NCBI RefSeq assembly: GCF_014653785.1
Contig: NZ_BNAS01000002.1
Location: 408,807-472,806 of the forward strand
Direction: 5' to 3'
DNA from: Promicromonospora soli
GTDB taxonomy: Bacteria > Actinomycetota > Actinomycetes > Actinomycetales > Cellulomonadaceae
Length of the DNA: 64,000 nucleotides
Positions 37,826 through 64,000 of this stretch are shown piece after piece. Position 1 is the stretch's first letter, and each line of letters starts with the position of its first letter. A program made the position numbers and the translations under genes. The notes beneath the pieces are model-generated. The model was not told the origin of the DNA. It made no database searches and saw only the letters and a list, made by a program, of their open reading frames with translations.

Positions 37826-39613
37826 ATGACCGACGTCGAGCTCCGCGATCCAGCGTTCACCGAGCGTTACCGCGCCATCGCCGCGCGCGACTCCCGCTTC
37901 GACGGGCAGTTCTACACGGCGGTGCGCACCACGGGTATCTACTGCCGGCCGTCGTGTCCGGCGCGCACGCCGAAGGCCGAGAACGTGGCGTTCTACCTGA
38001 CGTCCGCCGCCGCGCACGAGGCCGGCTTCCGCGCCTGCAAGCGCTGCCTTCCGGAGGCCGCGCCGGGCACGCCCGCATGGGACCTGCGTCGCGACCTCAC
38101 GGGCCGGGCGATGCGCCTCGTGGCCGACGGCGTGGTCGACCGCGAGGGTGTGTCGGGGCTGGCCAACCGGCTGGGCTACTCCGAGCGCCAGCTGCACCGG
38201 CTGCTGGTCAGCGAGCTGGGCGCGGGGCCGCTGGCGCTGGCCCGGGCCCAGCGCGCGCAGACGGCGCGCGCCCTCCTGGTCGGCACGTCCCTGCGTCTGG
38301 CGGACGTCGCCTTCGCTGCGGGGTTCGGCTCGATCCGGCAGTTCAACGACACCGTGGCCGAGGTCTTCGGCGCGACGCCGTCCGAGCTGCGCGCCCGGGG
38401 TCGGCGGGCCAGGCGTGGGGGCGGGGGCTCTGCCCGTGAGTTCGGTCGGTTGCCTCGAGATCGGTCCGTCGATGGACCGATCTCGCGGCAACCGACCGAA
38501 CTCGCGGCAACCGACCGATCTCGCACCGCGCAGCCGACCGATCTCGCCGCCACGATCGGCGAGCCCGTGCGGATCTCGCTCACCCTGCCGGTCCGGGAGC
38601 CGTTCGACGCGCGGGGTGTGCTGGAGTTCCTCGCGGTCCGCGCGATCGACGGCGTCGAGTCGGCGGACCTGGATCCTGGCCCTGGCACTCCGACCGGAGC
38701 GGACGGCTCGTCGAACGCCCTCCGGTACGCCCGCACCGTCGCCCTGCCGCACGGCCCCGGCGCGTTCGAGGTGCGGGTGCCCCGCCCGGGCAGCGGCCGG
38801 GTCGACCTGGACCTCGAGCTCGCCGACCTGGCCGACGCGCCGGTCGCCGTCGCGCGCGTGCGGCGCCTGCTGGACCTCGACGCGGACCCGGTCGCCGTCG
38901 ACTCCGCCCTGGCCACCGACCCGGTGCTCGCGCCGTCCGTCGCCGCGGTCCCGGGCATCCGGGTGCCCGGCACGCTCGACCCGGCGGAGCTCCTGGTCCG
39001 CGCGATAGTCGGCCAGCAGATCAGCGTCGCCGCCGCGCGCACGCACCTGTCGCGCCTCGCGAAGGGCGTCGGCACCCCGTACGCGTCGGCGTTCGAGGGC
39101 CTCACCCGCCTGTTCCCCACGCCCACCCAGGTGGCTGGTCGCCCGGGTCCCCGCGAGGACCCGCAGCGCAGCGAGGACGCCTCGTGGGGTGAGGGCCCGG
39201 GTCCCCGCGAGGACCCGCAGCGCAGCGAGGACGCCTCGCGGGGTGAGGGCGGCGGCGAGGCGCACCTCCGCCTGCCCGCCCGGACCCTGGCGACCGTGAT
39301 CGGCGCGGCCCGCGACCTCGCGGACGGAAGCCTCGCCCTGAGCGTCGGGGACGACCCCGACGACCTGCGCCGACGCCTGGTCTCCCGGCCGGGGATCGGG
39401 CCCTGGACGGCCGGCTACGTGGCGCTCCGAGTGCTCGGCGACCCGGACGTCCTCATGGAGGGCGACGTCGCGCTGCTCTCCGGCGCGCGCAACCTCGGCC
39501 TGGTCTCCGCGGAGGATCCCCGGCCGCACCAGTTCAAGGAGCTCGCCCGACGCGGCGCGGCGTGGGCGCCCTGGCGCTCGTACGCCGCCATGCACCTCTG
39601 GCGCTCCGCTTGA
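37826..39613 (+). CDS. Ada-AlkA fusion: methylphosphotriester-sensing AraC-type activator with 3-methyladenine DNA glycosylase
   Basis: This 595-aa adaptive-response protein has an Ada zinc domain ([24 protein letters not shown] ... [11 protein letters not shown], residues about 30-75, with the four cysteines including the methyl-acceptor). An AraC helix-turn-helix follows ([20 protein letters not shown]; about 105-190). The C-terminal AlkA domains have a helix-hairpin-helix [17 protein letters not shown] and the likely catalytic Asp in LMEGDVALL (about residue 553). It is unusually long. A 66-bp palindrome plus trailing repeats adds about 28 residues between activator and glycosylase, and two tandem family E elements add about 32 inside the glycosylase. 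ogt follows 67 bp later. Confidence 0.94.
38438..38523. repeat. Family D 66-bp palindrome plus extra unit inside ada-alkA
   Basis: Arms 38438-38470 and 38471-38503 (33 bp each, 2 mismatches, no loop) contain GGTCGGTTGCC and GAGATCGGTC. A further GCGGCAACCGACCGATCTCG unit follows. Read in-frame they give [20 protein letters not shown], almost the same peptide as the HemY copy at 63669-63734. Confidence 0.92.
39149..39243. repeat. Two tandem family E palindromes inside ada-alkA
   Basis: Copies at 39149-39189 and 39203-39243 have a 54-bp period and nearly identical sequence (CCCCGCGAGG ... CCTCGYGGGG). They encode [13 protein letters not shown] twice in the glycosylase domain. The frame is the same as in the xth copy. 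The doubling looks like a recent tandem duplication. Confidence 0.92.
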
Positions 39614-39680
39614 CGAGTCGAACACGCGGGTCACCCGAGCGACCCATGCGTCCGACAGCTCACCTCACGGAAGGAAGATC

Positions 39681-40229
39681 ATGAACGCCACGACCCTCAC
39701 CACTCCGGACGGTCCCTTCAGCATCGTCGTCTCCACCGTCCCGGAGACCGCCGGGAGCCCGGCCAAGGACGCGGTGCTCGCCGCCGGCTGGACCGCCGAC
39801 GTCGACGCGCTGCTCGCGCTCGTCCACCCCACCCTCCGCCCCACGACGGAGGCGGAAATGCTCGACCGGCTGTCGACGCCGGACGGCGTGCTCGCCGAGG
39901 CGGCCGACGCCGTCCGCGCGTACTACGACGGCGACCACGGGGCGCCCGGCCGCGTGCCCGTGCGGCAGGCGAGCGGACCGTTCCGGACGCACGCGTGGGA
40001 CGTGCTGCGCGACGTGAAGGCCGGCGAGCGGATCACCTACAGCGAGTACGCGGTGCGGGCCGGCCGGCCCGCCGCGGTGCGTGCGGCGGCCGGGGCGTGC
40101 GCGATGAACGCGGCGGCGCTGTTCGTGCCGTGCCACCGCATCCTGCGCATGGACGGCAGCCTCGGCGGGTTCCGCTACGGGCTGCCGATCAAGGAGAGCC
40201 TGCTGGCCCGCGAGACCCTGCCGAGATAG
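39681..40229 (+). CDS. ogt: Methylated-DNA--[protein]-cysteine S-methyltransferase
   Basis: This 182-aa suicide enzyme removes methyl from O6-methylguanine onto its own cysteine. The active-site motif AALFVPCHRILRMDGSLGGFRYG (Cys at about residue 151) and the preceding helix-turn-helix ERITYSEYAVRAGRPAAVRAAAGACAMN are complete. GGAAGG precedes the ATG. It probably belongs to the adaptive-response transcript with ada-alkA. The last two codons and TAG stop (CCGAGATAG) are the first bases of the family A palindrome at 40221, so the repeat supplies the C-terminus. Confidence 0.96.
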   Translation: MNATTLTTPDGPFSIVVSTVPETAGSPAKDAVLAAGWTADVDALLALVHPTLRPTTEAEMLDRLSTPDGVLAEAADAVRAYYDGDHGAPGRVPVRQASGPFRTHAWDVLRDVKAGERITYSEYAVRAGRPAAVRAAAGACAMNAAALFVPCHRILRMDGSLGGFRYGLPIKESLLARETLPR

Positions 40230-40343
40230 AACCGTGGCGAGATAGAACTGGGGCGCGGGACAGATGCACTGTCCCGCGCCCCAGTTCTATCTCGCCCTAG
40301 TTCTATCTCGCCCCAGTTCTATCTCGCCACGGTTCTACCTCGG
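40221..40343. repeat. 123-bp family A palindrome overlapping the ogt stop codon
   Basis: The left arm (40221-40263) starts CCGAGATAGAACCGTGGCG. The right side (40269-40343) repeats its complement, with two additional 16-bp GTTCTATCTCGCC units. The loop is ATGCA. It lies between the converging ogt and ABC permease genes. Unit number differs between the arms, indicating unit gain or loss. Related copies: 17-49 and 44841-44900. Confidence 0.9.
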
Positions 40344-40353
40344 CTGCTCGGGG

Positions 40354-41280
40354 TCAGCCCTTGACCGAACCCGCCAGCAGTCCGCGCACGAAGTAGCGCT
40401 GCAACGCGAGGAACACGATCAGCGGCACCACGATCGCGATGAACGCGCCGGCGGACAGCACGTGCCAGTCACCGCCGCGGGAACCCGCCATCTCGGCCAC
40501 GCGCACCGTCAGCGGGAACGTCTGGGTACCGCCCATGACCAGGGCGACGAGCAGGTCGTTCCACACCCACAGGAACTGGAAGATCGCGAACGCCGCGATC
40601 GCCGGGGTGAGGAGCGGCAGCATCACCGAGAAGAAGATCTTCACGTGCCCGGCGCCGTCCACACGAGCCGCCTCGACGAGCGAGGAGGGGATGTCCTTCA
40701 TGAAGTTGTGGAGCAGGAAGATCGCCAGCGGCAGCGCGAACATCGAGTGCGACAGCCAGATGGGCCAGAACGTCCCGTTGACCCCGGTGTCCACGTAGGC
40801 GGTGAGCAGCGGGATGAGCGTGATCTGGATGGGCACGATCTGCAGCGCGAACACCGCGACGAACAGGAGGTCGCGGCCCTTGAAGTCGATCCACGCGAAC
40901 GCGTAGGCGGCCAGCAGCGCCACGGTGATCGGGATGAACACAGCGGGCAGCGTGATCACGAACGAGTTCACGAAGAACTGGATCAAGTTGGTCGAGCTGT
41001 CGAACAGCGCCGACTCGTAGTTGGCCAGCGTGAACACGCCCTCGCCCGCGATCGCGTCGCCGAAGACCGTCCACCAGCCGCTGCGCCGGATGTCCAGCTC
41101 GGGCCGGAACGACGTGACCAGCAGCCCGAAGGTCGGCACCGTCCAGATGATCGCGATGATCACGGCGATCGCGCTCGCCCACGGCGAGGTAAGCGCCTTT
41201 TTCGCCTTGCGCGCCCGCTCGTTCACGGTAGACGGCGGAGGGACCACCCTGGGCGTCACGGCCGGCTGTGTGGTACTCAT
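40354..41280 (-). CDS. Sugar ABC transporter permease (AglG/MalG-like)
   Basis: This 308-aa membrane subunit has six predicted helices and the CUT1 EAA loop VEAARVDGAGHVKIFFSVMLPLLTPAIA (about residue 195). A cytoplasmic N-terminus precedes SPWASAIAVIIAIIWTVPTFGLLVTSFRP. The closest resemblance is to AglG of alpha-glucoside importers. It overlaps the AglF-like gene by 4 bp. No ATPase gene is present; like many actinobacterial CUT1 systems it likely shares an MsiK-type ATPase encoded elsewhere. Confidence 0.92.
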   Translation of the reverse strand: MSTTQPAVTPRVVPPPSTVNERARKAKKALTSPWASAIAVIIAIIWTVPTFGLLVTSFRPELDIRRSGWWTVFGDAIAGEGVFTLANYESALFDSSTNLIQFFVNSFVITLPAVFIPITVALLAAYAFAWIDFKGRDLLFVAVFALQIVPIQITLIPLLTAYVDTGVNGTFWPIWLSHSMFALPLAIFLLHNFMKDIPSSLVEAARVDGAGHVKIFFSVMLPLLTPAIAAFAIFQFLWVWNDLLVALVMGGTQTFPLTVRVAEMAGSRGGDWHVLSAGAFIAIVVPLIVFLALQRYFVRGLLAGSVKG

Positions 41281-42269
41281 CGGACCTCCTCGGCCAGGCG
41301 CATCTGGCGCACGTTGTAGATGATCACCGGGATGACGATGACGAACAGGAGCACGGCGAGCGCAGCGCCCAGGCCTGCGTTGTTCTGCCGGAAGCTCTGC
41401 TCGTAGAACTCGTTCGCGACGACCGAGGTGCCGTACCGGCCCGCGGTCATGGTGCGCACGATGTCGAAGACCTTGAGCGTCGTCATAGCGATGGTGGTCA
41501 GCACGACGACGAGCGCCGGGCGGATGCTCGGGATCGTGATGCGCCAGAACATGCCGAAGCCGGACAGGCCGTCCAGGCGGGCCGCCTCGACGATGTCGGT
41601 GGGGATGGCGCGGATCGACGCCGAGAGCAGGGTCATCGAGAAACCTGTCTGGATCCAGATGAGCACCACCATGAGCAGGAACGTGTTGAGCGGCCGTTCC
41701 AGCAGGAACTGCACGGGCTCACCACCGAGCCAGACGATGAGCTGGTTCAGGAGGCCGGTCTGCTCGATACCCGGCTGGTCGGGCTTGTACTCGTAGACGA
41801 AGCGCCAGATGATGCTCGCACCGACCATCGAGATGGCCATGGGCAGGAACACGAGGGCCTTGGCGAACTTCTCGAACCGGCTGTGGTCCACCACCACGGC
41901 GTAGACGAGGCCGAAGAATGTGGCCAGGAGCGGCGCCACGAGCACCCACAGCGCGGTGTTGCCCAGGACGAGCAGGAACGCCGGCTCAGTGAACGCCCTG
42001 ATGTAGTTGTCGAAGCCGATGAACTCGTTACTGGTCCGGAACTGGAACGAGTTCACGATCGTCCCGAAGGCCGGATACAGCAGACCGAGCGCCAGGAGCA
42101 GGAGCGCAGGCCCGACGAATCCGGCTGCGACGAACCACTTCGACGGGTTCCGTCGCCGGTCCACGATGAAGAGGATCAGGGCCATCACCACGATGAAGAG
42201 CGCTATCGCGATGAGCATCAGCAAGAACTTGTGTACCGGGTCGTCCCCGGCGTGCAGCAGCCACTCCAC
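41277..42269 (-). CDS. Sugar ABC transporter permease (AglF/MalF-like)
   Basis: This 330-aa protein has an N-terminal pair of helices (FLLMLIAIALFIVVMALILFIVD) before the six-helix CUT1 core. Its EAA loop is PTDIVEAARLDGLSGFGMFWRITIPSIRPAL (about residue 222). The extra N-terminal membrane part and the VYEYKPDQPGIEQTGLLNQ stretch match AglF rather than short MalF proteins. It forms the transmembrane channel with the next gene's product. A hairpin 65-97 bp upstream separates it from the binding-protein gene. Confidence 0.9.
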   Translation of the reverse strand: MEWLLHAGDDPVHKFLLMLIAIALFIVVMALILFIVDRRRNPSKWFVAAGFVGPALLLLALGLLYPAFGTIVNSFQFRTSNEFIGFDNYIRAFTEPAFLLVLGNTALWVLVAPLLATFFGLVYAVVVDHSRFEKFAKALVFLPMAISMVGASIIWRFVYEYKPDQPGIEQTGLLNQLIVWLGGEPVQFLLERPLNTFLLMVVLIWIQTGFSMTLLSASIRAIPTDIVEAARLDGLSGFGMFWRITIPSIRPALVVVLTTIAMTTLKVFDIVRTMTAGRYGTSVVANEFYEQSFRQNNAGLGAALAVLLFVIVIPVIIYNVRQMRLAEEVR

Positions 42270-42333
42270 GGCTATCTCCTGTCGCTGTACTGGTCCGGTC
42301 GTCCTTGACTGGTCCTATACCAGCCTAGGACGG

Positions 42334-42366
42334 CGGAGGCGCGGGACTCCAGGTCCCACGCCTCCG
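42334..42366. terminator. Hairpin between sugar-binding protein and permease genes
   Basis: A 14-bp stem CGGAGGCGYGGGAC (one G-T position) with a 5-base loop lies in the 121-bp gap. In CUT1 operons such hairpins commonly stabilise the binding-protein mRNA or attenuate the permease genes, giving more binding protein than channel. A small CTGGTCCTATACCAG dyad lies just below it. Confidence 0.6.
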
Positions 42367-42390
42367 CACGTCATATCCGGGAGGCGGACG

Positions 42391-43779
42391 TCACTTCGGC
42401 CAGGAGGCCTCGATGTCGTCCGTGACCTCTTGGCTGCTGAGGTCAGACGCGAACCACTCGGTCATGCCGGCCCAGAACGACCCCGTACCGACCTCGGAGG
42501 GCATCAGGTCGGAAGCGTCGAACCGAGCAACCGTGGCCGGGTCGGCCAGGATCTCCGCAGACAGCCTGTCGAACTCCGTGGCCAGCAGCTCCGGGTCGAG
42601 CCCCTTGTTCGCGCTCACCCAGCCGCCGACCGGCGTTGCCGCCGCCTTGGCGTTGGCCCAGTCAGCACTCGACAAGTACGTCTGGAAGGCCTGCACCTCG
42701 GGAGCGTCGTTGAACGCGCCGATGAACTCGCCGGCCACGAGGGTCGGCCGCTCGGCGGCATCCATCGACGGGAGGTAGAAGGCGTAGACGTCGCCGTCCG
42801 GCGCCACCTCGGTGCCCTCGGGCCACTGCGTCTGGTAGAAGTTCGCCGCGCGGTGCATCCAGCAGGAACCCTCGAGGATCGGGTAGCCCGCGTCCGTCCA
42901 GGGCGCCGTCGCGATCGAGTCGACCCCGCCCAGGCCACCGTTCACGTAGTCCGGGTTCTTGAGGATCTCGGCGGCCATGTCGAACGCCTCGACGATCTGC
43001 GGGTCGTTGAACGGGATCTCGTGCTTGTACCACTGGTCGTAGACCTCGGGGCCCGCGGAGCGGAGCACGACGTCCTCGATCCAGTCGGTGGCCGGCCAGC
43101 CCGTCGCGTCGCCGGACTCGACACCGGCGCACCACGGGACGGCGTCGGTCGAGGCGATCTCTTCCGTCAGCGCCAGCAGGTCGTCCCAGGTCTCCGGGAT
43201 CTCGTAGCCCGCCTCTTCGAACATGGACGGCGAGTACCAGACGTAGGACTTGACGTTCGAGCCCAGGGGCGCGGCATAGAAGGTGCCGTCGACGGTGCCG
43301 TAAGCCTTCCAGTCCTCGCTCCAGCCCTCGTCCACGTTGGCCTCGACCTGCGCCGGCGCGGGCAGCACGGCGTCATACTGCGTCACCAGGGTGTTCAGCA
43401 GACCCGGCTGCGGCAGGATCGCGATGTCCGGCGGGTTGCCGGCCTGGACGCGCACGGGAAGCTGCGCCTCCATCTCGCGCGACCCCTCGTAGTTGATCGT
43501 GACGCCGGTGCACTCCTCGAACGGCTCGTACGAAGCCGTCTGCGTCTCGGCCTCCGGCTCGACGATCGTGGTGTAGACGTCGACCGAGGTGCCCTCGAGG
43601 TCACCGAACTCCTCGAAGACACTGCAGTCGATCTCGTAGGCGCCGGGCTCGCCGCCGTCGCCGCCGCCGTCGCCTCCGCCATCATCGGTGTCGGCACAGG
43701 CCGCGAGGACCAGGGCCAGGCTCGCGCCGGTCGCCGCAAGGGCGACCGCTCGACGTCTGGAAGACATCCGGATAGTCAT
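42391..43779 (-). CDS. Sugar ABC transporter substrate-binding lipoprotein (AglE-like)
   Basis: This 462-aa family 1 solute-binding protein has a signal peptide with lipobox LVLAAC (about residue 28), followed by a Gly/Asp-rich linker. The mature part includes FEECTGVTINYEGSREMEAQLPVRVQAGNPPDIAILPQPG (about 75-115) and WPATDWIEDVVLRSAGPEVYDQW, as in AglE-type alpha-glucoside receptors. GGAGG sits 8 bases before ATG 43779. It is first gene of an aglE-F-G-like operon. The upstream 275 bp contain spaced TTGCA half-sites. Confidence 0.92.
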   Translation of the reverse strand: MTIRMSSRRRAVALAATGASLALVLAACADTDDGGGDGGGDGGEPGAYEIDCSVFEEFGDLEGTSVDVYTTIVEPEAETQTASYEPFEECTGVTINYEGSREMEAQLPVRVQAGNPPDIAILPQPGLLNTLVTQYDAVLPAPAQVEANVDEGWSEDWKAYGTVDGTFYAAPLGSNVKSYVWYSPSMFEEAGYEIPETWDDLLALTEEIASTDAVPWCAGVESGDATGWPATDWIEDVVLRSAGPEVYDQWYKHEIPFNDPQIVEAFDMAAEILKNPDYVNGGLGGVDSIATAPWTDAGYPILEGSCWMHRAANFYQTQWPEGTEVAPDGDVYAFYLPSMDAAERPTLVAGEFIGAFNDAPEVQAFQTYLSSADWANAKAAATPVGGWVSANKGLDPELLATEFDRLSAEILADPATVARFDASDLMPSEVGTGSFWAGMTEWFASDLSSQEVTDDIEASWPK

Positions 43780-43887
43780 CTCGTGCTCCTCCACTGCTTC
43801 GTGGGCTGAGAACCCTCTGACGTGCGGGTACGGCCCGGCAGAGTGCCAGGTTGCCCTTCCTCTACGCAACCGTGGTTCACGAGGTTA

Positions 43888-43930
43888 TGCAAGCCGATAC
43901 TGCATCGCCTTGCATTACGAAACCGTTGCA
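43888..43930. promoter_or_regulatory. Cluster of TGCA/TTGCA half-sites upstream of the sugar-uptake operon
   Basis: TGCAA (43888), TGCA (43901), TTGCA (43910) and TTGCA (43926) lie within 43 bp in the 275-bp divergent region between the AglE-like gene and map, with a related GCAAC at 43866. Spaced TTGCA motifs suggest binding by a LacI-type maltose/alpha-glucoside regulator, but no regulator gene is adjacent. Nothing else is recognisable in this gap. Confidence 0.4.
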
Positions 43931-44054
43931 ATCGCCCGAGTCGCCGATGTCGGGGGAGCCACTGGCGGGCGCCTGCGGCACGGCGGCTCGCGTGTCACTG
44001 GCGGGACGTAGGCTTGTGCCGCCAGATCACTGGTGCCCCTACGGAAGGACGGAC

Positions 44055-44831: not shown

Positions 44832-44840
44832 CCCCTCTTG

Positions 44841-44900
44841 CCGAAGTAGAACCAGGGCGAAGTAGAACCCTGGTTCTACTTCGCCCTGGTTCTACTTCGG
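44841..44900. repeat. Perfect 29-bp-arm family A hairpin between map and a HAD gene
   Basis: Arms 44841-44869 and 44872-44900 are exact complements with a 2-base loop. Each arm consists of two CCGAAGTAGAACC / GGCGAAGTAGAACC units. It sits between the converging map and HAD stops and can serve both as terminator. Perfect complementarity over 29 bp implies recent origin or ongoing correction. Confidence 0.95.
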
Positions 44901-44904
44901 CATC

Positions 44905-45723: not shown

Positions 45724-45860
45724 CACGTACCCCCATGGCACCGTGAGCGCCGTCACTCCTCGACGGATCGCGCCCAAATGTACAGGCATTCAACCAGTGA
45801 TCCATACCTTTGCACGGATAACTTTTCACCCGCGGCGTCAGCCCTTGGACCTTTTTATCA

Positions 45861-46735: not shown

Positions 46736-46812
46736 CCGGCCTGGTTGCGGGCGTGACCGTTGCGCCTACGTGTCCCTTATAGGCGCAACGGTCACGCCCA
46801 CAACCAAGCCGG
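46736..46812. repeat. Family B palindrome between serS and a HAD gene
   Basis: Two 33-bp arms (46736-46768, 46780-46812; 2 mismatches) with an 11-base loop carry the GTTGYGGGCGTGACCGTTGCGCCTA motif. It lies 12 bp beyond the serS stop. The same motif forms the hairpin at 56936-57004. It is a likely terminator for the long serS transcript. Confidence 0.9.
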
Positions 46813-56935: not shown

Positions 56936-57004
56936 CTTGGTTGTGGGCGCGATCGTTGCGCCTACCTGCCCGGTTTAGGCGCAACGATCGCGCCCACAAC
57001 CAGG
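56936..57004. repeat. Family B palindrome between CoA-transferase and LAXTG protein genes
   Basis: Arms 56936-56964 and 56976-57004 (29 bp, one mismatch) with an 11-base loop share the GTTGTGGGCGCGATCGTTGCGCCTA motif with 46736-46812. It begins directly after the TAG stop of the CoA-transferase and ends 4 bases before the converging gene's stop, filling the whole gap. Terminator for both genes is likely. Confidence 0.93.
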
Positions 57005-57008
57005 TGGG

Positions 57009-57923
57009 TCAGGCGCGGATGTGGCTGCGGCGAGCGACCAGGAGCGAGCCCGCACCGCCGATGACCAGGGCGCCGGCCGCCGCCGTGAGGGCCGCAGCCT
57101 CGGCGCCGGTCGTAGCGAGCCGGACCGGGGCGTCGAGCGTGGCCTCGGCGAGCGCGGACGCCTCCTTCTCGATGGCCTCGACGCTGGCGCCCTCGTTCGG
57201 GACGAAGGCGGTGAGCTCGGCGCCGAGGGTGTCCGGCGTCGTCGACGGTCCCTGCCACTGCTGCCCGGGCGCCTGGACGGCCAGCGGCGGCTCCGACGCG
57301 GCGATCTGCACGGGGGCGGCCAGCACCACGGGGGCGGCCAGCACCACCGGTGCGGGAGCCTCCTCCGGGGCTGCGGGGGTGGGCGCCTCGGCGGGCGCGG
57401 CCGGCCGTGCGGCAGCCGTGGCGACCTCGGGCTCAGGCTCAGGCTCGGGCTCGGGCTTCGGCTTGGGTGCCGGCGCCTCGGCTTCCTTCACGTTCTCCCG
57501 GACGGCCTCGCGCTCCTGCTCGCGGTCGCCCCCGTCCCACTCGCCGTTGCTGCTCTGGGCCTCGGCGCCGCCCTGCACCTCGGTGCGGTCGCAGTCACCC
57601 TGCTCGGCCTCGTACTGCGGCACGTCGTAGCTGGGCTCCGCGTTACCCGTGGGCTCGTACGAGCGCGGGGCCCCGTAGGAGTGGCGACCGGCCTCGTACC
57701 CGCGACCGCCGTCGGCCCCGTGGCCACCGTCGTAGGCGCGAGCGCCGTCGTGCCCACCGGCGTAGTCGACGGAGTGCCCGCCGTGCCCGCCTTGGCCGTG
57801 TCCTTCGTTCGCCATCGCCGGGCTGGCGACGGCGGTCGCCGCGGTGGCGAGCGCGATCGTCGCCACGACGCGGGAGGCCGCGGACTTAGCGGCGGACGTG
57901 GGCTTGATGGCGGCGTGCTTCAT
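57009..57923 (-). CDS. Sortase-anchored (LAXTG) surface protein
   Basis: This 304-aa exported protein has a signal peptide MKHAAIKPTSAAKSAASRVV... cleaved near SPAMANE (about residue 38). A Gly/His-rich segment (residues 40-75: GHGQGGHGGH) precedes a charged and PKPEPEPEPEPE stretch (about 150). The C-terminal sorting signal is LATTG, followed by a hydrophobic stretch and the tail ARRSHIRA. LAXTG is the class E sortase signal used by actinobacteria, so the product should be linked to peptidoglycan. GGAG lies 8 bases before the ATG. The signal peptide closely matches that of the next secreted gene. The histidines might bind metal. Confidence 0.88.
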   Translation of the reverse strand: MKHAAIKPTSAAKSAASRVVATIALATAATAVASPAMANEGHGQGGHGGHSVDYAGGHDGARAYDGGHGADGGRGYEAGRHSYGAPRSYEPTGNAEPSYDVPQYEAEQGDCDRTEVQGGAEAQSSNGEWDGGDREQEREAVRENVKEAEAPAPKPKPEPEPEPEPEVATAAARPAAPAEAPTPAAPEEAPAPVVLAAPVVLAAPVQIAASEPPLAVQAPGQQWQGPSTTPDTLGAELTAFVPNEGASVEAIEKEASALAEATLDAPVRLATTGAEAAALTAAAGALVIGGAGSLLVARRSHIRA

Positions 57924-58033
57924 AGGAGCTGCTCCAGCTGGTCGGCTACAACGGCCCGGAACCCGGGATGGCACGACGCTACCTGATCGGGAATAGAGGG
58001 AAAAAGTGGTGGACCGGAAAAAGCCGGACTGCC

Positions 58034-58055
58034 TATAACGATTCGGTAACAACGG
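58034..58055 (-). promoter_or_regulatory. Shared upstream motif, copy 1
   Basis: TATAACGATTCGGTAACAACGG (plus-strand reading) lies about 111 bp upstream of the LAXTG gene start and matches 17 of 22 bases at 59817-59838, upstream of the related secreted gene. It probably binds a common regulator. GTTAC-type repeats recall MtrA-like sites, but that assignment is a guess. Confidence 0.5.
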
Positions 58056-58097
58056 CCATGTGAATGGAACCTTCTCAAAGCGCCGGAAAACGCAAAC

Positions 58098-58126
58098 AGG
58101 GTGGAGCGCCAATGGCGCTCCACCCT
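58098..58126 (-). terminator. Terminator of the repetitive secreted protein gene
   Basis: A perfect 14-bp stem AGGGTGGAGCGCCA with a 1-base loop lies 46 bp beyond the stop of the 517-aa protein gene (minus strand). It is followed on that strand by CTGTTTGCGTTTT, giving the closest thing to a classic intrinsic terminator in the window. Confidence 0.8.
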
Positions 58127-58172
58127 GCTACGTCAAGACCGAAGAGGCTGGGGTCCTCCCGGGGTTCTCAGA

Positions 58173-59726
58173 TCAGGAGAGGCCTCCCAGCAGTCCGCCC
58201 ACGGCACCGCCGGTGAGGCCGTCCACCGTGCCGGTCACGGTGCCGACGGTGTCCGTCACGGCACCGCCGGCAACGCCGTCGACCGTCTTCACGACGGGCT
58301 TGGCGACGCCGTCCACGACGACGTCCTTCACGACGGGCTTGGCGACGCCGTCCACGACGACGTCCTCGACGAGCGGCTTCGCGACGCCGTCCACGACGGT
58401 GTCCTTCACCGGGTTCACCACGTTGCCGACCACGCCGTCCTTGACGACACCGCCGACGACGCCGTCGAGCACGACGCCCTCCACGACCGGCTTGGCGACG
58501 CCGACGGCGCCCGGCACGACGTCGCCGGTCACGGTGCCGACGGCACCCGGGACGACCGAACCGGTCACGCCGCCCACGGTCGAGGTGACGCCCGGAACGA
58601 CGCTCCCCTGCACCGAGCCGACGGCACCCGGGACGATGTCCGTGGCGACGGGCTTGACGACGCCGTCCACGGCGACATCGCCCACGACGGTCTCGAACGC
58701 ACCGGCGGCCGGGGTGGTGAACTGGGCCACGACACCCGGAACGCTCTGGACCACGCCAGGAACGTTCGACACGACGCTGTTCACAACGCCGGCCACGCCA
58801 CCGAGCACGCCCGGCAGGTTCGCGGCCAGGCCTGCGACCGGAGCGGTCGCGGCGCCCACGACGTTCGGCACGTTGCGGATCACGCCGGCCACGGTGGTCG
58901 GCGCGGACTCGACGGTGCCGATCGCGGCGCCGGTGGCACCGTTCACGACGTCGCCCGAGGTCACGCCGCTGACAACGCCGTTGGCGGTGCCCACGACGCC
59001 ACCGGCAACGCCGGTAGCCGTGCCCACGGCGCCGGTCGCGGTGCCCGTAGCGGTGCCCACGACGCCGGTCGCGGTGCCCACGACGTTGCCGCCGAGCACG
59101 TTGGCCAGCGCCGAGTGAGCGGTGCCGGTCACGCCGGCAACCGTTGAGCCATCGGTCACGCCACCCACGACGCCGGTCGCGGTGCCGACAGCGCCGCCGG
59201 CAACGCCGGTAGCGGTGCCGACAACACCGGTCGCGGTGCCGACGACGTTGCCGCCGAGCACGTTGTTGAGCGCCGAGTGCGCGGTGCCGGTCAGGCCGCC
59301 TGCGACGGAGCCGTTGACGACGCCGTTGACAGTGCTGTTGACGGAGCCGTGGACAGCACCGTTGGCCACACCGAAGGCCGCGCCCGCGGCGCCCTGGACG
59401 GCACCGGACACGTACTGCGCCGGCTCGTAGTTCGGCGCGAGGGCCGTGGTGGGGGCGATGGAGGCGGGCAGCTCGCTCTTCACCACGTCGGTCGCGGGGA
59501 GCGACTTGGTGAGCTCGCTGAGGTCGATCGACGTCGACGAGAGGGCGGGGAGGCCCGACTTGAGGCCCTCGGCGGTGGTGCCGAGGTCGCCCAGGGAGTC
59601 CAGCGGCGAGGCCTCAGCAGCCATGGCCGGTGCGGCCATGCTCGTGGCCGCGGTCGCGATGGCGACGGTCGCGATGGTGCGCGCGCCCGCCGATGCGGTC
59701 TTCTTCTTGGGTGCTGCGTGCTTCAA
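58173..59726 (-). CDS. Secreted Gly/Val/Thr-rich repeat protein
   Basis: This exported protein of about 517 aa has a signal peptide KHAAPKKKTASAG... ending near AMAAE (about residue 36), then about 60 ordinary residues and over 400 residues of repeats. These include two 54-aa units starting GTAHSAL (162-bp DNA period, 59108 and 59270), many VGTATGV copies, and three 13-aa GVAKPVVKDVVVD units (39 bp). No sorting signal, membrane anchor or catalytic motif is seen; it could form fibres or a matrix. Start TTG 59726 is chosen by analogy: GGAGCACC-TTG-AAGCACGCA parallels GGAGCAGCTCCT-ATG-AAGCACGCC of the LAXTG gene. An upstream ATG at 59741 is the alternative. Confidence 0.75.
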   Translation of the reverse strand: MKHAAPKKKTASAGARTIATVAIATAATSMAAPAMAAEASPLDSLGDLGTTAEGLKSGLPALSSTSIDLSELTKSLPATDVVKSELPASIAPTTALAPNYEPAQYVSGAVQGAAGAAFGVANGAVHGSVNSTVNGVVNGSVAGGLTGTAHSALNNVLGGNVVGTATGVVGTATGVAGGAVGTATGVVGGVTDGSTVAGVTGTAHSALANVLGGNVVGTATGVVGTATGTATGAVGTATGVAGGVVGTANGVVSGVTSGDVVNGATGAAIGTVESAPTTVAGVIRNVPNVVGAATAPVAGLAANLPGVLGGVAGVVNSVVSNVPGVVQSVPGVVAQFTTPAAGAFETVVGDVAVDGVVKPVATDIVPGAVGSVQGSVVPGVTSTVGGVTGSVVPGAVGTVTGDVVPGAVGVAKPVVEGVVLDGVVGGVVKDGVVGNVVNPVKDTVVDGVAKPLVEDVVVDGVAKPVVKDVVVDGVAKPVVKTVDGVAGGAVTDTVGTVTGTVDGLTGGAVGGLLGGLS

Positions 59727-59816
59727 AAGGTGCTCCAGCATCTCGTTGCGCAAATGCGCGTTCGGTCCTTGAGCCACCGAACTTAGTCTTCACCCCCGGG
59801 TGAATAAAATCACCCA

Positions 59817-59838
59817 TGTTACGATTTGGTAACGATGG
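59817..59838 (-). promoter_or_regulatory. Shared upstream motif, copy 2
   Basis: TGTTACGATTTGGTAACGATGG lies about 91 bp upstream of the repeat-protein start, with an internal GTTAC/GTAAC dyad. See copy 1 at 58034. A CACCC...GGGTG small dyad lies between it and the gene (59791-59803). Confidence 0.5.
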
Positions 59839-59898
59839 GCAAATTGGACACGTGAAATCGGTCCGTCCGGCTTGTTCCGGCGGCTTTGTGCTGGGGAA

Positions 59899-61377
59899 TT
59901 ATCGGCGTGCCGAGGGATCGGCGTCTCGCTGGGCGGACGCCTCCATCGTCAGGGCCTCGGCGCCCTGGACCAGCGCGGCCTCCGCGGCCCGCGCCCGCGC
60001 GGTGGCCTTCTCCCGGACGGCGACGATCTTGTCGTGCAGCTCGGCGTGCACCCGCTTGCGCACGTTGCGGGCGATGACGTCGAGGTCGGCCTCGTCCGGG
60101 GCGTGCACGCCGCGCAGGGCCAGCTCGTCGGTGAGCCGGCTCACGGCGTCGTCGATCTCCGCCACCACCCGGACCTCCGCCTCGTCCAGCAGGGCGATCA
60201 CCGCGGCGTCGGCCTCCCGGCCCAGGCGCGTCTCCTCGAAGCGGCGGGCGGCGGCGTCCACGATCTGCTGCGCCTGCGCGACGACGTCGTGCGCCACGGC
60301 CGGCGCGTGCGCCTTCAGCGTGCCGAGGTCGAAGAGCAGCACGCCCTCGACGTCGGCGACCCGCGGGTCGACGTCGCGGTGCAGGGCGAGGTCGAGGATC
60401 ACGAGCGGTCGGGGCTCCGGCTCGTCGCCCGCCCGGTCCGCGGCGCGCTCCCGTGCCCGCACCAGTGCGGCGGCGTCCAGCACGTGGCCCAGGCTGGCCT
60501 CGGGGGCGCTCTCGCTCACCAGGCCCGGGAGCGTCGTCGCGTAGCCGTGGCCCCCGGTCTCGCGCTCGTCCTGGGGCTCGGCGGGAGCCTCGGCCTGCGC
60601 GGCGAGGAGGCGGCCGCGGGCGCCGCTGCAGCTGACCACGAGGTCGGCGTCGGCCAGCGCGTCGACGAGCGAGGCAACGGGCTGCACGCCGTGCGACTCG
60701 GCGAAGGCTTCGGCGCGGCCGGACTGCGAGTAGACGCGGATGTCCTGGCAGCCGCGGGCTCGGAGAGCCGCGACGGACGCGCCCGCGTACGAGCCCGTGC
60801 CGATGAGTACGGCGCTCGCGCCGTCCCACGGCGGCAGCTCGCCCTCGGCGAGGTCCAGCGCGAGCGCGACGACGGATCGGCCGGCGGCGCCGAGCTCCGT
60901 GTCGGTGCCGACGCGCTTGGAGGTGCGCGACGCCGTCTGGAAGAGCAGCTCGAGCGTCTTGGACGTGGTCTCCTGTTCGCGCGCCTCCGCGAGCGAGCGC
61001 TTCACCTGGCCGGCGATCTCCCGCTCGCCCACGACCATCGCGTCCAGGCCGGACGCCACGGCGAACAGGTGCTCGGTGACCTCCGGGCCGGTGCGGACCG
61101 TGAAGCTGCGGGCGGCGACGTCGCCGGTCACGCCGGACGCGTTGGCCACGAGCTCGGCCACGTGCCGCGTCGCGTGCCGGACGCTGTCGCCGCTCAGGGG
61201 CGCGTCCACGTCCAGGTAGAGCTCGAAGCGGTTGCACGTCGAGATCACCACGGCGCCCGCGACGGGGCCGCACGTACCCACGACGACGCGACCCACTGAC
61301 GACGAACCCGTGGACAGGCGTTCCAGCGCGTCGAGATCGAGCTCGCGGTGGCTGGCGGTGAGGGAGAGGAGAACCAC
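59899..61377 (-). CDS. hemA: Glutamyl-tRNA reductase
   Basis: This 492-aa enzyme reduces glutamyl-tRNA to glutamate-1-semialdehyde, the committed step of C5 heme synthesis. The catalytic Cys lies in VISTCNRFELY (about residue 48), with the substrate motif MVVGEREIAGQVK (about residue 114) and the NADPH-binding domain with VLIGTGSYAGASV (about 190). The C-terminal dimerisation helices extend to about 470. A 40-residue polar insertion (APAEPQDERETGGHG, about residue 262) lengthens the NADPH domain. GTG start preceded by GGGG. It diverges from hemE, 49 bp away, so heme genes are expressed from a shared promoter region. Confidence 0.96.
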   Translation of the reverse strand: MVLLSLTASHRELDLDALERLSTGSSSVGRVVVGTCGPVAGAVVISTCNRFELYLDVDAPLSGDSVRHATRHVAELVANASGVTGDVAARSFTVRTGPEVTEHLFAVASGLDAMVVGEREIAGQVKRSLAEAREQETTSKTLELLFQTASRTSKRVGTDTELGAAGRSVVALALDLAEGELPPWDGASAVLIGTGSYAGASVAALRARGCQDIRVYSQSGRAEAFAESHGVQPVASLVDALADADLVVSCSGARGRLLAAQAEAPAEPQDERETGGHGYATTLPGLVSESAPEASLGHVLDAAALVRARERAADRAGDEPEPRPLVILDLALHRDVDPRVADVEGVLLFDLGTLKAHAPAVAHDVVAQAQQIVDAAARRFEETRLGREADAAVIALLDEAEVRVVAEIDDAVSRLTDELALRGVHAPDEADLDVIARNVRKRVHAELHDKIVAVREKATARARAAEAALVQGAEALTMEASAQRDADPSARR

Positions 61378-61426
61378 AGTGCCCCAACTTTATGCACCCC
61401 GGCCCGGCAGGGCAGAATCGGGAAGC

Positions 61427-62512
61427 GTGAAGTCCACCACGATCGCCCCCGCTCATCCGCTCGCCGACGGGCGGACCTCTGCCGCGCCCCTGGTGCAGGC
61501 TCTCCGGGGTGAACGTCCTAGCCGCACGCCCATCTGGTTCATGCGCCAGGCCGGCCGCTCCCTGCCGGAGTACCGCAAGGTACGGGCCGGTACCGGCATG
61601 CTCGAGTCCTGCCTCCGGCCCGAGCTCGCGTCGGAGATCACGCTCCAGCCCGTCCGCCGGCACGGGGTCGACGCCGCGGTCTTCTTCTCCGACATCGTGG
61701 TGCCGCTCAAGCTCGCCGGGGTCGGCGTGGACATCAAGTCCGGGGTGGGCCCGGTGATGGACCAGCCGTACCGCACGGCCGACGACGTCGCGCGGCTCGT
61801 GTCCCGCGGCCTGGACGACGCGGCCCTGGAGCCGATCCGGGAGGCAGTCGCGCTGACCGTGGCCGAGCTGGGCTCGACGCCGCTCGTCGGCTTCGGCGGT
61901 GCGCCGTTCACACTGGCCGCGTACCTCGTGGAGGGCCGGCCGTCGCGCGACCACCTGGCCGCGCGCACCCTGATGCACGCCGACCCCGCCACGTGGGACG
62001 CGCTCGTGGCGTGGACCGCCGACCTCACCGGCGCGTTCCTCCGGGCGCAGGTCGAGGCGGGGGCCAGCGCGGTGCAGCTGTTCGACTCGTGGGCAGGGTC
62101 GCTCTCGCTCGCGGACTACACCTCGCGGGTCGCCGCGTCGTCCACCCGGGCGCTGGCGCACATCGCGGACACCGGGGTGCCCGGCATCCACTTCGGCACC
62201 GGCACCGGGCACCTGCTGCCCGCCATGCGTTCGGTCCTGGTCTCCGCGGGGATCGCGGACCACGCGGTGGGCATCGACTACCGGACGCCGCTCGACGAGG
62301 CGGCCGACCTGCTCCCCGGCGTTCCCCTGCAGGGGAACATCGACCCGGCGCTGCTCGCCGCCCCCTGGGACGTGCTGGAGGCGCACGTACGGGACGTCGT
62401 CTCCCGCGGGCTCAAGGCGCCCGGACACGTGGTCAACCTCGGCCATGGCGTGCCGCCGGAGACGGACCCGACGGTGCTGACCCGCGTGGTCGAGCTGGTG
62501 CACTCGTTGTGA
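61427..62512 (+). CDS. hemE: Uroporphyrinogen III decarboxylase
   Basis: This 361-aa enzyme decarboxylates the four acetate arms of uroporphyrinogen III to give coproporphyrinogen III. Conserved signatures: PIWFMRQAGRSLPEYRKVRAGTGMLE (about residue 35, with the essential Arg), FFSDIVVPLKLAGVGVDI (catalytic Asp, about residue 85) and GFGGAPFTLAAYLVEGRPSRD (about 150). GTG 61427 follows GGGAAG closely. hemY follows 148 bp later, with a palindrome in the gap. Confidence 0.97.
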   Translation: MKSTTIAPAHPLADGRTSAAPLVQALRGERPSRTPIWFMRQAGRSLPEYRKVRAGTGMLESCLRPELASEITLQPVRRHGVDAAVFFSDIVVPLKLAGVGVDIKSGVGPVMDQPYRTADDVARLVSRGLDDAALEPIREAVALTVAELGSTPLVGFGGAPFTLAAYLVEGRPSRDHLAARTLMHADPATWDALVAWTADLTGAFLRAQVEAGASAVQLFDSWAGSLSLADYTSRVAASSTRALAHIADTGVPGIHFGTGTGHLLPAMRSVLVSAGIADHAVGIDYRTPLDEAADLLPGVPLQGNIDPALLAAPWDVLEAHVRDVVSRGLKAPGHVVNLGHGVPPETDPTVLTRVVELVHSL

Positions 62513-62554
62513 GCTGCTGGGCGGCCGGGCCGGCGGCGGCCGGGCCAGCGGTCT

Positions 62555-62611
62555 TTGACCATGCACTTGCTGCCATAACCGGGCCTCGGCCGGCAGCAAG
62601 TGCATGGTCAA
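62555..62611. repeat. Family C palindrome between hemE and hemY
   Basis: Perfect 20-bp arms TTGACCATGCACTTGCTGCC (62555-62574) and its complement (62592-62611) with a 17-base loop. The same arm type occurs inside coding sequence at 16361-16420. Here it sits between co-directional genes 50 bp before hemY and might attenuate or terminate hemE transcription. Confidence 0.93.
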
Positions 62612-62660
62612 CGAGAGCGGCTCTCGCGGGCCTCGGTCTCCGACGCGCGATCTGGCCGAG

Positions 62661-64000
62661 ATGACCGAGATGACCGAGGCCGCCGACGCCGTCGTCGTCG
62701 GTGCCGGGATCGCCGGGCTCGTCGCCGCGCACACGCTTTCGGCGCGAGGGCTGCGCGTGGTCGTGCTGGAGGCTGCCGACAGGGCGGGCGGGCCGATCCG
62801 TGGCGGGTCGTTCGTGTCGCTGCCGGGGGTGCCCGTGGACCTCGGCGCGGAGTCGTTCGCGGTGCGAGGCGGCGTCGTCGAACGGCTGGCCGAGGAGCTC
62901 GGGCTGACCGTCGAGAGCCCCGCCGGGCTCTCTGCCTGGGGTTATGCGGCCGGCCGCGCCTTTCCGCTGCCCGCCGCCGGGGTCCTCGGGATCCCCTCGC
63001 GGCCGTGGGCCGCGGACGTGCGGCGCGCGGTCGGCTGGCCGGGGGCGCTGCGCGGCTCGCTGGACCGGGTGGTGCCGTCGCGGTTCGTCGACACCACCGA
63101 CCTCGGGACGTTCGCGCGGTCGCGGCTCGGGTCCCGGGTGGCGGACCGATTGGTCACGCCGGTGGCGGCCGGGGTGCACTCGGCGCCGCTCGACCGGCTG
63201 GACGTCGCCGCCGTCGCGCCCGGGCTGCTGGACGCGTACGCGCGGACCGGATCCCTCTCGCGGGCGGTGGCGTCGCTGCGGGCGGCAGCTCCCCCTGGGT
63301 CCGCGGTGCGCGGGATCGACGGTGGCATCCATGCCCTGGTGAACGCCCTGGTGGAGCGCCTGGACGTCCGGTTGGGGGCGCGGGTCGTGGGCGTGGAGCG
63401 AGTGCCCGGCGGGGCTGGCACGACCGCGGGAGGCGGTGCTGTGCCCGGGGGGCAGGGCACTTCCGGGCAGGGCAGCTCTGGCCAGGACACTTCCGGCCAA
63501 GGCAGTGTGATGCAGGCCGGTGCCATGCAGGGCAGCGCCGGCCAGGGCACCACCGGCCACGGCACCACCGACTGGCTGGTGCGCACCGAGGGCGGCCAGG
63601 TGCTGCGCGCGCCGCGGCTGGTGCTGGCAACCCGCGCCGAGATCGGTCCGTTGCCCGCTGCCGGTCCCGAGGTCGGTCGGTTGCCTCGAGATCGGTCAAT
63701 CGATGGACCGATCTCGAGGCAACCGACCGATCTCGAAGCGGACTCCCACCAAGGGACCGAGCTCGCACCAGCGCAGCCCGGCATGCCCGCCGCCGCAGAG
63801 CCGAGCGAACTCACCCCGCCGCGCGCCCCCGAGCGCGGCGCGGACATCCGCCTGGTCACGCTGCTCCTGGAGGCGCCCGAGCTGGACGCGGCCCCGCGCG
63901 GTTCGGGGATGCTCGTGGCCCCGGGCATGACGCCGGGCGATGTCCGCGCCAAGGCGCTGACCCACGCGACGGCGAAGTGGCCGTGGCTTGCCCGGCGGGT
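62661..64000 (+). CDS. hemY: Protoporphyrinogen/coproporphyrinogen III oxidase, 3' end outside the window
   Basis: This FAD enzyme oxidises copro- or protoporphyrinogen; in actinobacteria it serves the coproporphyrin-dependent heme route. 446 residues are visible and the frame stays open to the window end. The FAD-binding start VVVGAGIAGLVAAHTLSARGLRVVVLEA and the PVDLGAESFAVRGG stretch are typical, as is VRGIDGGIHALVNALVERL (about residue 215). Two insertions are unusual: a Gly/Ser/Gln-rich repeat (SGQGT-like units, about residues 250-305) and a family D palindrome peptide (about 336-358). ATG 62661 or 62670 may be the start. Confidence 0.93.
   Translation, partial: MTEMTEAADAVVVGAGIAGLVAAHTLSARGLRVVVLEAADRAGGPIRGGSFVSLPGVPVDLGAESFAVRGGVVERLAEELGLTVESPAGLSAWGYAAGRAFPLPAAGVLGIPSRPWAADVRRAVGWPGALRGSLDRVVPSRFVDTTDLGTFARSRLGSRVADRLVTPVAAGVHSAPLDRLDVAAVAPGLLDAYARTGSLSRAVASLRAAAPPGSAVRGIDGGIHALVNALVERLDVRLGARVVGVERVPGGAGTTAGGGAVPGGQGTSGQGSSGQDTSGQGSVMQAGAMQGSAGQGTTGHGTTDWLVRTEGGQVLRAPRLVLATRAEIGPLPAAGPEVGRLPRDRSIDGPISRQPTDLEADSHQGTELAPAQPGMPAAAEPSELTPPRAPERGADIRLVTLLLEAPELDAAPRGSGMLVAPGMTPGDVRAKALTHATAKWPWLARR
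63669..63734. repeat. Family D 66-bp palindrome inside hemY
   Basis: Arms 63669-63701 and 63702-63734 (33 bp, about 3 mismatches, no loop) contain GGTCGGTTGCCTCGAGATCGGTC. The in-frame reading [20 protein letters not shown] differs at two of twenty positions from the Ada-AlkA copy at 38438-38503. Degenerate fragments (GAGATCGGTCCGTTGCC near 63640) flank it. Confidence 0.93.

Follow-up and report, generated by a model that had tools for sequence, protein, structure and literature searches.

The window, i.e., the whole 64,000-nucleotide stretch of the Promicromonospora soli genome that was analyzed, carries two unrelated genes with an in-frame copy of the same palindrome (Table 1). One encodes an Ada-AlkA protein, in which the palindrome lies in the linker between the HTH and AlkA_N domains, and the other a protein with the Pfam Amino_oxidase domain, which we take to be HemY. 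The original prediction that two 66-bp palindromes are read in the same phase in these genes was confirmed: both copies begin at codon position 1 of the host ORF, and they are 93% identical over 67 nt (repeat family D9). Single-strand folding yielded energies of -60.4 and -61.2 kcal/mol, whereas shuffled sequences averaged about -23.4 (z = -12.2 and -12.0; none of 200 shuffles was equally good). The elements had been described as loop-less with 33-bp arms; they are indeed palindromic, but their geometry is different. The HemY copy forms a perfect 29-bp stem with an 8-nt loop, the Ada copy has a 6-nt loop and one internal mismatch, and related 16-bp units extend outside the predicted limits. 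Across 110 copies (110 of 112 were taken for this count) the arms match at most of positions 1–29, and at positions 30–31 no better than in shuffles.

Ada-AlkA additionally contains an unrelated imperfect palindrome of family D3, other copies of which are found at 15911, 21173 and 50460 of the window. The D3 pair is unique to the P. soli genome among the aligned Ada orthologs, with G002 having a shorter related stretch.

Table 1. Genes, palindromes and 16-bp units at the two window loci (positions in the window).
Feature	Position	Strand	Details
Host gene Ada-AlkA	37817..39613	+	Ada_Zn_binding 16-80, HTH_18 115-194, AlkA_N 255-388
Palindromic element family D, Ada-AlkA copy	38438..38503	.	Phase 0, residues 208-229, 22-residue peptide
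Ada-AlkA side 16-bp unit GAGATCGGTCGGTTGC	38507..38522	-	0 mismatches, 19-bp step, inside the Ada-AlkA reading frame
Second Ada-AlkA side 16-bp unit	38530..38545	-	1 mismatch
Imperfect palindrome family D3, two tandem 54-bp copies	39141..39248	.	In frame in Ada-AlkA
Host gene HemY (presumed)	62604..64000	+	Pfam Amino_oxidase; ends beyond the window; 585 aa in L030:436-2190
HemY outer unit GAGATCGGTCCGTTGC	63639..63654	+	30-bp step upstream of the terminal unit
Palindromic element family D, HemY copy	63669..63734	.	Phase 0, residues 356-377, 22-residue peptide
HemY downstream outer unit	63749..63764	-	2 mismatches, 30-bp step

Architecture and genomic distribution of the repeat family

The window copies belong to a REP-like repeat family of Promicromonospora and its relatives. 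Its unit is 16 bp long, GA(G/C)NTCGGTCSRTTGC. Four units, organized as two inverted pairs with a 19-bp step, make up the palindrome with its 29-bp stem and 8-nt loop, and additional units may be positioned on either side at a 30–31 bp step. When the complete genome and sister species were searched, as the original prediction had proposed, a dispersed repeat emerged that is present in 12 of 13 Promicromonospora genomes and in one other among the 59 genomes searched. Searched with at most 3 mismatches, a 27-base half-element pattern gave 15 forward and 14 reverse matches in the P. soli genome and 0 with the reversed-pattern control. Forward half-site matches numbered 22 in P. soli, 15–56 in 10 of the 12 further genomes of the genus, 4 in G007 and 0 in G006 (reversed control 0). 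Many pattern matches were also noted in genome G144. Three further genera of the bacterial family have genomes in which the same 19-bp geometry occurs with a different tail.

Two other types of repeat were considered and rejected. DNA uptake sequences are short words that recur hundreds to thousands of times in a genome; at up to 2 mismatches the 16-bp unit has 161 matches and its reversed control 67, which is too few copies. As for carriage by phages or plasmids, a 126-bp array found no match in phage and plasmid collections.

We sampled 144 copies, a set that is incomplete because BLAST similarity to the HemY copy was the sampling criterion in several genomes (for G001, G003, G005, G010 and G011, mainly the best 15 scored matches per genome). 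They fall into 67 sites, defined as clusters of copies with matching flanks, the largest of which (11 copies, 5 genomes) joins neighboring elements; 34 clusters are common to at least two genomes. For copy-level analyses 140 of the 144 were used, after exclusion of two P. soli copies containing runs of N and two that duplicated the sequence of a neighbor at the same clustered site. According to our own codon-usage gene caller, which was used instead of annotation, 33 sites are located in tandem, 21 in convergent and 7 in divergent gaps, and 6 within called genes; background gaps comprise 166 tandem, 46 convergent and 62 divergent ones (p = 5e-4 by gap count, 1.5e-5 by bp). In this count three copies overlapping a gene end by a few bases are intergenic, and the calling of one locus varies with the stretch (G000:C2:258826, in a gene once and between genes once). 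Tandem copies are nearer to the upstream stop in 56 of 66 cases. The repeat thus persists at shared addresses across species and is biased to gene 3' ends and convergent gaps, as is characteristic of the intergenic palindromic repeats of the REP/REPIN type. With 61 of the 67 sampled sites intergenic, it is not mainly a gene-inserting element. In 464 kb of the P. soli genome, long palindromes of several families (n = 46) show 18 convergent, 22 tandem and 0 divergent positions, with 6 in genes or unplaced.

Copies within genes and covariation of their arms

The two insertions originally counted proved an underestimate. Phase 0 copies are carried, in several species, by four genes encoding HemY, Ada-AlkA, an MpaB-like oxygenase and a presumably sacsin-like ATPase (named from its N-terminal sequence; Pfam gave no match), and a GDSL hydrolase gene contains the repeat in phase 2. 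One phase-1 case lies in a doubtful ORF. Since so few genes are involved, the preference for phase 0 is suggestive. Openness of the frame is rejected as its cause: stop-free copies amount to 57 of 140 when read from the first base, 131 from the second and 92 from the third.

Unrelated proteins thus contain one DNA repeat in frame, and alignment of HemY and Ada-AlkA homologs revealed filled and unfilled sites within Promicromonospora. The HemY site is filled in 7 and unfilled in 4 of 11 informative genomes (G007 and G009 are cut by contig ends), and the Ada site is filled in 5, degenerate in 2 and unfilled in 5 of 12, where presence was judged by eye on the peptide and 4 copies pass the DNA detector. 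Outside the genus, comparison covered HemY and Ada. The peptide is absent from the 15 HemY and 11 Ada rows aligned from other genera, Antribacter gilvus (G014) set aside; Ada row L082 is aligned in its AlkA part only. Some of these rows possess short unrelated inserts in the same linker. The claim that the host families lack the segment therefore holds for these orthologs, but not for A. gilvus. A related segment is found there at both sites, and that in HemY, equal in place and phase, is a palindrome of that genome's own type, for which BLAST gave 26 matches in the genome (both strands counted). This shared position indicates that the insertions are old. In Antribacter soli, a different Gly/Pro-rich stretch occupies the HemY site, while Xylanimonas oleitrophica and Myceligenerans indicum offered no usable ORF for this comparison. 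Most probably the host proteins tolerate the insert as an extension of a linker.

Reading in frame leaves a mark on in-gene copies, namely the avoidance of stops. A T at position 19, which creates a TGA stop in phase 0, was found in 0 of 19 in-gene 5' arms vs. 146 of 242 arms elsewhere (p = 7e-8; p values for the 19 in-gene copies overstate independence, because these come from only four genes), the expectation from each genome's own frequency being 10.2 of 19. At the four phase-0 gene sites all 33 outer-unit steps are 30 bp, while elsewhere (n = 106) 48 are 30 bp and 53 are 31 bp.

The two arms covary. Of 110 copies, 78 have an identical spacer triplet, where 2000 shuffles gave 31.5 on average and 45 at most; with one copy per site the count is 43 of 67 (mean 23.0, maximum 33). 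In 10 of the 19 in-gene copies, codons 6 and 17 are reverse complements of each other, against a shuffle mean of 2.5 and 0 of 5000 shuffles reaching this count; with within-site shuffles, 1 of 5000 reached the observed value. Since the arms covary, two residues of the peptide change in concert, the coupled pairs, as codon and reverse-complement codon, being P-R, H-V, H-M, L-E, L-K and S-R. Stem mismatches are slightly more numerous in genes (2.89 vs. 2.12 of 29, p = 0.08). G-U vs. A-C mismatches in all tandem copies (25 vs. 14) gave a hint of RNA-level pairing, which was gone with one copy per tandem site (15 vs. 16). Copies at different sites of the same genome differ at 3.88 of 29 positions and copies of different genomes at 4.71, a gap of 0.83 where the maximum of 300 shuffles was 0.217, and for 17 of the 19 in-gene copies the intergenic copies of the host genome are the closer ones. 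Descent accounts for part of this resemblance, because same-site copies across genomes are also alike (4.16).

Probable origin and upkeep, and comparison with known systems

We consider it likely that a REP-like family spread in the past without autonomous mobility, survived in protein linkers, and has been subject to DNA-level arm upkeep and partial homogenization within genomes. Copies would have spread as short non-autonomous palindromes, and some of those landing in flexible linkers in a stop-free phase may have survived. Their arms would since have been kept complementary, more probably through DNA than through RNA, for instance by repair that is guided by a hairpin or a template switch and rewrites one arm from the other, and dispersed copies would have been partly homogenized within each genome. 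In genes, such upkeep would oblige two positions of the inserted peptide to change together. Of the mobile element originally envisaged, we thus retain past spread, as an inference. Neither a parent transposon nor a transposase was found, and Y1_Tnp (PF01797, RAYT) was detected in 0 of 14 genomes, with 5 of 14 control genomes positive. Eight sites are unique to one of two close genomes, and four of them were aligned with the empty site. No target duplication was seen by eye in these four. One has ragged ends, and in the other three one unit or remnants of units persist, a picture that deletion explains as well as non-insertion does.

Compatible with past spread and arm upkeep, and quite possible in itself though we do not favor it outright, is that the array serves as a DNA-binding platform. 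A putative sequence-specific protein would sit on the 16-bp units, which the 30–31 bp pitch would place along one helical face, at the ends of transcription units, with a boundary, nucleoid or topology function, and in-gene copies would be functional sites coded through. Outer units lie at 30 or 31 bp (34 left and 36 right over 65 sites), with smaller peaks at 60–62 and 90–93 and few elsewhere, but are missing at 22 of 66 sites. Extension of the hairpin into the outer units was rejected, as outer units and spacers do not pair. Pairing leaves the pitch unexplained, because the spacers between units are random and the 31 sites that have an outer unit on each side show no covariation of left with right. 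A partner unit (up to 3 mismatches) was present at 29–32 bp in 168 of 310 ordered ortholog comparisons, against 4 for the control offset. In all of 84 orthologous comparisons the units had diverged less than the spacers (24 of 26 for the close pair), a count biased by the choice of units by consensus likeness and by non-independent pairs. The genome-specific shifts seen at dispersed loci are consistent with a trans factor co-evolving with its sites. On the other hand, some arrays resemble recent tandem duplications with similar neighboring spacers, protein binding does not require the spacer-triplet covariation, no match was obtained in G006, and we know of no protein that binds the array. The 30–31 bp pitch with randomized spacers, explained neither by mobility nor by arm repair, suggests protein binding. 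More tentatively, and on the doubtful side, the repeat could be a class of DNA-level elements of Promicromonospora and relatives read by a putative sequence-specific factor that co-evolves with its sites by genus; genes would carry these sites as translated linkers, with the protein shaped by matching codons 33 nt apart on opposite arms.

A role of the palindromes in terminating transcription in both directions or in protecting mRNA 3' ends, with the in-gene copies being accidents, we regard as unlikely. The very stable hairpin, the bias to 3' ends and convergent gaps and the lack of divergent positions among the long palindromes would suit such a role, but six or more T in the 10 nt after the stem occur at 0 of 29 tandem sites (mean 1.66 vs. 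1.48 at a control place), and G-U pairs are not in excess with one copy per site. Seven sites are divergent, and four genes carry the repeat in several species. A known RNA family was likewise rejected, the window having no Rfam match at gathering scores. RAYT-mobilized REPINs, as in gamma-proteobacteria, are very improbable: the repeat is palindromic, dispersed, 3'-biased and sometimes intragenic like REPs (PMC3733652), but Y1_Tnp is missing from the 14 genomes and the stem is 29 bp long instead of 5–13 bp (PMC3733652, Table 1). An ancestral segment of HemY and Ada merely resembling the repeat is hardly tenable, for despite the related segments in A. gilvus, of which the HemY one is itself a repeated palindrome, the other orthologs aligned from outside the genus did not show the peptide, let alone encode it by unrelated DNA, and the same DNA lies at 61 intergenic sites.

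In-frame palindromes have been described for Rickettsia and several other bacteria (PMC3733652, PMC10969869). The likeness to Rickettsia palindromic elements (RPE) noted in the original prediction was borne out: in both, in-frame palindromes occur in several unrelated genes with a recurrent peptide, and several families are present per genome (PMC10969869, PMC3733652). Yet, compared by description, the Promicromonospora element is unit-built and 66 bp long whereas RPE are ~150 bp (PMC10969869), its sites are mostly intergenic and it belongs to a different phylum; peptide-level arm covariation and a 30–31 bp pitch are not mentioned for RPE in the parts of PMC10969869 and PMC3733652 consulted. 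REP/BIME and intragenic REPs (GTAG, CGTC) also favor convergent or unidirectional gene pairs and positions near stop codons, with occasional intragenic units, many of them in DNA synthesis and repair genes (PMC3733652), and Ada-AlkA is a repair gene. In contrast, their stems measure 5–13 bp (GTAG) or 8–9 bp (CGTC) (PMC3733652, Table 1), and the Promicromonospora repeat has no RAYT and forms extended unit arrays. MITEs are short inverted repeats with known in-frame fusions (PMC10969869), but here no target duplication was seen at the four aligned sites, no parent transposon was found, and a single palindrome makes up the entire element. PARCEL (palindromic amphipathic repeat coding elements) share coding sequence with dyad symmetry, yet consist of tandem 25-residue motifs (PMC2996958), unlike the single copies in ordinary enzyme linkers and mostly non-coding copies observed here. 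The main text of PMC3733652 contains no word beginning with actinobacteri, and nothing in the open-access literature covered contradicts the absence of an earlier actinobacterial description. Taken as a whole, the original interpretation is partly supported.

The Promicromonospora group is free-living and offers a large number of related genomes, with occupied and empty sites as well as intergenic copies as controls, which makes the origin and upkeep of coding palindromes testable. The pitch of 30–31 bp provides a direct target for a binding-protein search. The coupled residues clearly exemplify how a constraint on nucleic acid can be imprinted on protein, and they call for caution in methods that take residue covariation as contact.

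Position, architecture and distribution of the family D palindrome

We found that both 66-bp palindromes of the original prediction, one in the gene for Ada-AlkA and one in that for HemY, were correctly located in the window, and that they are in the same frame as claimed, each beginning at codon position 1 of its host ORF. Compared with shuffled sequences, their predicted folds are better by about 12 standard deviations. Among 110 copies, the arms agree at most of positions 1–29, with weaker agreement at positions 3, 4, 11, 12 and 18, and positions 30–31 agree no better than shuffles; because the arm match ends after position 29, family D is best described as a 29-bp stem with an 8-nt loop. 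The HemY copy is flanked on both sides by extra copies of the element's 16-bp unit at a 30-bp step, and the Ada copy has such units close downstream. N runs lie inside the element in two of the 18 copies of the genome itself (G000:C5:241370, stretch L011; G000:C9:151834, stretch L020), where the assembly was perhaps broken by the hairpin.

Repeats and host genes in the window
Feature	Positions	Remarks
Member of GAGATAGAAC/GAAGTAGAAC family	15-51	family trait: units in tandem around a palindrome
ada-alkA	37817-39613	host gene
Family D, Ada-AlkA	38438-38503	in frame
Family D3, palindromic	39141-39248	unrelated to family D; in frame; two tandem copies; AlkA part of Ada-AlkA
Member of GAGATAGAAC/GAAGTAGAAC family	40222-40310	as at 15-51; convergent genes on either side
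Member of GAGATAGAAC/GAAGTAGAAC family	44839-44902	as at 15-51; convergent genes on either side
Family with arms like TGGTTGTGGGCGYGATCGTTGCG	46736-46812	
Family with arms like TGGTTGTGGGCGYGATCGTTGCG	56938-57002	
Families D1, D2, D6, D7	58244-59343	long degenerate GC-rich tandem repeats; apparently a repetitive protein
hemY	62604 onward	host gene; 585 aa in stretch L030
Gly/Gln/Ser-rich tandem-like stretch (GQGTSGQGSSGQDTSGQG)	63430-63560	in HemY; longest among aligned orthologs
Family D, HemY	63669-63734	in frame

Family D was present in 12 of the 13 Promicromonospora genomes and in one other among the 59 genomes searched; the latter is G014, whose HemY segment matches the Antribacter gilvus one exactly. 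The half-site pattern gave 22 matches in the genome itself and 15–56 forward matches in 10 of the 12 further genus genomes, with four forward matches in G007 and none in G006, and the reversed-pattern control gave none in these 12. In a family-wide search of 200 genomes, 36 showed some match. Of these, 24 belong to other genera, and most of the 24 have one to six matches each; higher counts were seen in G218 (10 forward, 17 reverse) and G144 (15 and 14), and the reversed control yielded a single match in each of two genomes. In stretches of G218, G147, G089 and G202, the core word GAGATCGGTC and the 19-bp geometry recur but the tail differs; symmetric, shortened and lopsided forms occur. No record matching a family D array was found in the phage and plasmid collections.

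The 144 sampled copies fall into 67 site clusters, defined by flanking sequence, of which 34 are common to at least two genomes. Tandem genes surround 33 of these sites, convergent genes 21 and divergent genes seven, and six lie inside called genes, versus 166 tandem, 46 convergent and 62 divergent background gaps of at least 20 bp in 464 kb of the genome itself (p 5e-4 by count, 1.5e-5 by bp). Copies between tandem genes are mostly closer to the upstream stop (56/66). When these 464 kb were scanned for long palindromes, 46 turned up, belonging to several families: 22 lie between tandem genes, 18 between convergent and none between divergent genes, and six are in genes or unplaced. Thus, this genome generally carries palindromes behind genes. 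The TGGTTGTGGGCGYGATCGTTGCG-type family has 13 copies in this stretch, all between tandem or convergent genes, and the GAGATAGAAC/GAAGTAGAAC family has a 16-bp unit plan similar to that of family D.

Copies inside genes and the mark of translation

In several species, the element is in phase 0 within the genes for HemY (seven copies), an MpaB-like oxygenase (five), Ada-AlkA (four) and a sacsin-like ATPase (three). One copy in a GDSL hydrolase gene is in phase 2, and an ORF of G002 is a doubtful case in phase 1. The HemY element is present in seven and absent from four of 11 informative genus genomes, and HemY of G008 retains a stretch resembling half an element. In Ada, where the insert is placed between HTH_18 (115–194) and AlkA_N (255–388), five of 12 genus genomes have a clear element, two a degenerate one and five none. 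The peptide is absent from 15 HemY and 11 Ada rows of other genera, G014 excepted. As to other repeats in these genes, the D3 pair occurs only in the genome itself among aligned Ada orthologs, with a shorter related stretch in G002; G014 has many D3 copies too (17 matches). In the sacsin-like gene of G003 (L166), a 30-bp unit in tandem copies encodes ASIAGQPTDL repeats, which suggests recent array growth within the gene.

Outside the phase-0 genes, 146 of 242 arms have T at position 19; in the 5' arm this T would give TGA in phase 0. None of the 19 in-gene 5' arms, which derive from only four genes and are not independent, has it (p 7e-8 against the arms outside these genes), versus 10.2 expected from the frequencies of the genomes concerned; in their 3' arms, where it makes no stop, it is present in 5/19. 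Translation leaves a visible trace in the sequence of the element. Outer-unit steps are 30 bp in 33/33 cases at phase-0 gene sites and, elsewhere, 31 bp in 53 and 30 bp in 48 of 106. Over 140 copies, phase 0 is least often stop-free (57, versus 131 and 92 for the other two phases); therefore, openness is not the reason why the four genes use it.

Covariation of the arms and pitch of the outer units

In 78 of 110 copies the two arms share the same spacer triplet; within-genome shuffling gives 31.5 on average (at most 45 in 2000 shuffles). With one copy per site the count is 43 of 67 (23.0 shuffled, largest 33). Between species at one site, triplets often differ yet match between arms. Insert codon 6 is the reverse complement of codon 17 in 10/19 in-gene copies (shuffle mean 2.5, 0/5000; within-site shuffle 1/5000), since the arms covary, and the residues are coupled as P-R, H-V, H-M, L-E, L-K and S-R. 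Selection at the protein level could hardly produce this coupling by itself. Stem mismatches across all tandem copies comprise 25 G-U and 14 A-C; with one copy per tandem site the two are equal (15 and 16), which favors a DNA-level cause of arm matching. Template-switch repair, by which one arm would be rewritten from the other, might keep the arms matched, or selection might act on the DNA hairpin; the data fit both.

In a rival reading, the arrays would be a platform for a DNA-binding protein; the main argument for it is the fixed 30–31 bp pitch, which looks like the spacing of a protein along DNA. At 65 sites, outer units at 30 or 31 bp gave 34 matches on the left and 36 on the right, with smaller peaks at multiples of 30–31 bp; 22 of 66 sites have no outer units. 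Left versus right spacers are random, and no covariation of left and right outer units was found. Some neighboring spacers in one array are similar, as expected from tandem duplication. Among orthologous partners, the outer unit is either well kept (0–2 mismatches, 157/310) or lost.

Inferred past mobility and probable homogenization within genomes

Two close genomes have 20 sites in common and four unique sites each. Four of these eight were aligned with an empty site: three empty sites retain single units or unit traces and one is ragged. No target duplication was seen at these four, and 14 genomes searched for a RAYT (Y1_Tnp transposase) gene all lacked one, so mobility in the past is inferred from dispersal and from presence and absence. 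Family D behaves like the Rickettsia palindromic elements and like intragenic REPs, a likeness rather than shown membership. Searches of open-access papers aimed at this point gave no earlier description for an actinobacterium, and nothing there speaks against the novelty claimed.

Copies at different sites of the same genome differ by 3.88 of 29 and those of different genomes by 4.71, a gap of 0.83 (largest of 300 shuffles: 0.217); same-site copies in different genomes show an intermediate difference (4.16 of 29). For 17 of the 19 in-gene copies, the intergenic copies in the same genome are closer than those in other genomes. The strongest case of homogenization is HemY of Antribacter gilvus, which has an imperfect palindrome (24/33 arm positions) in the same place and phase with a different sequence, one with 26 BLAST matches in its own genome (both strands counted). 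Genome G015 has seven matches to this variant (stretches L398, L404 and others), one of them (C10:46280) near its Ada gene (C10:46520). The Antribacter palindrome may be an independent insertion at a hot spot; on the simplest reading, the HemY palindrome would be one old insertion that has changed in step with the genome.
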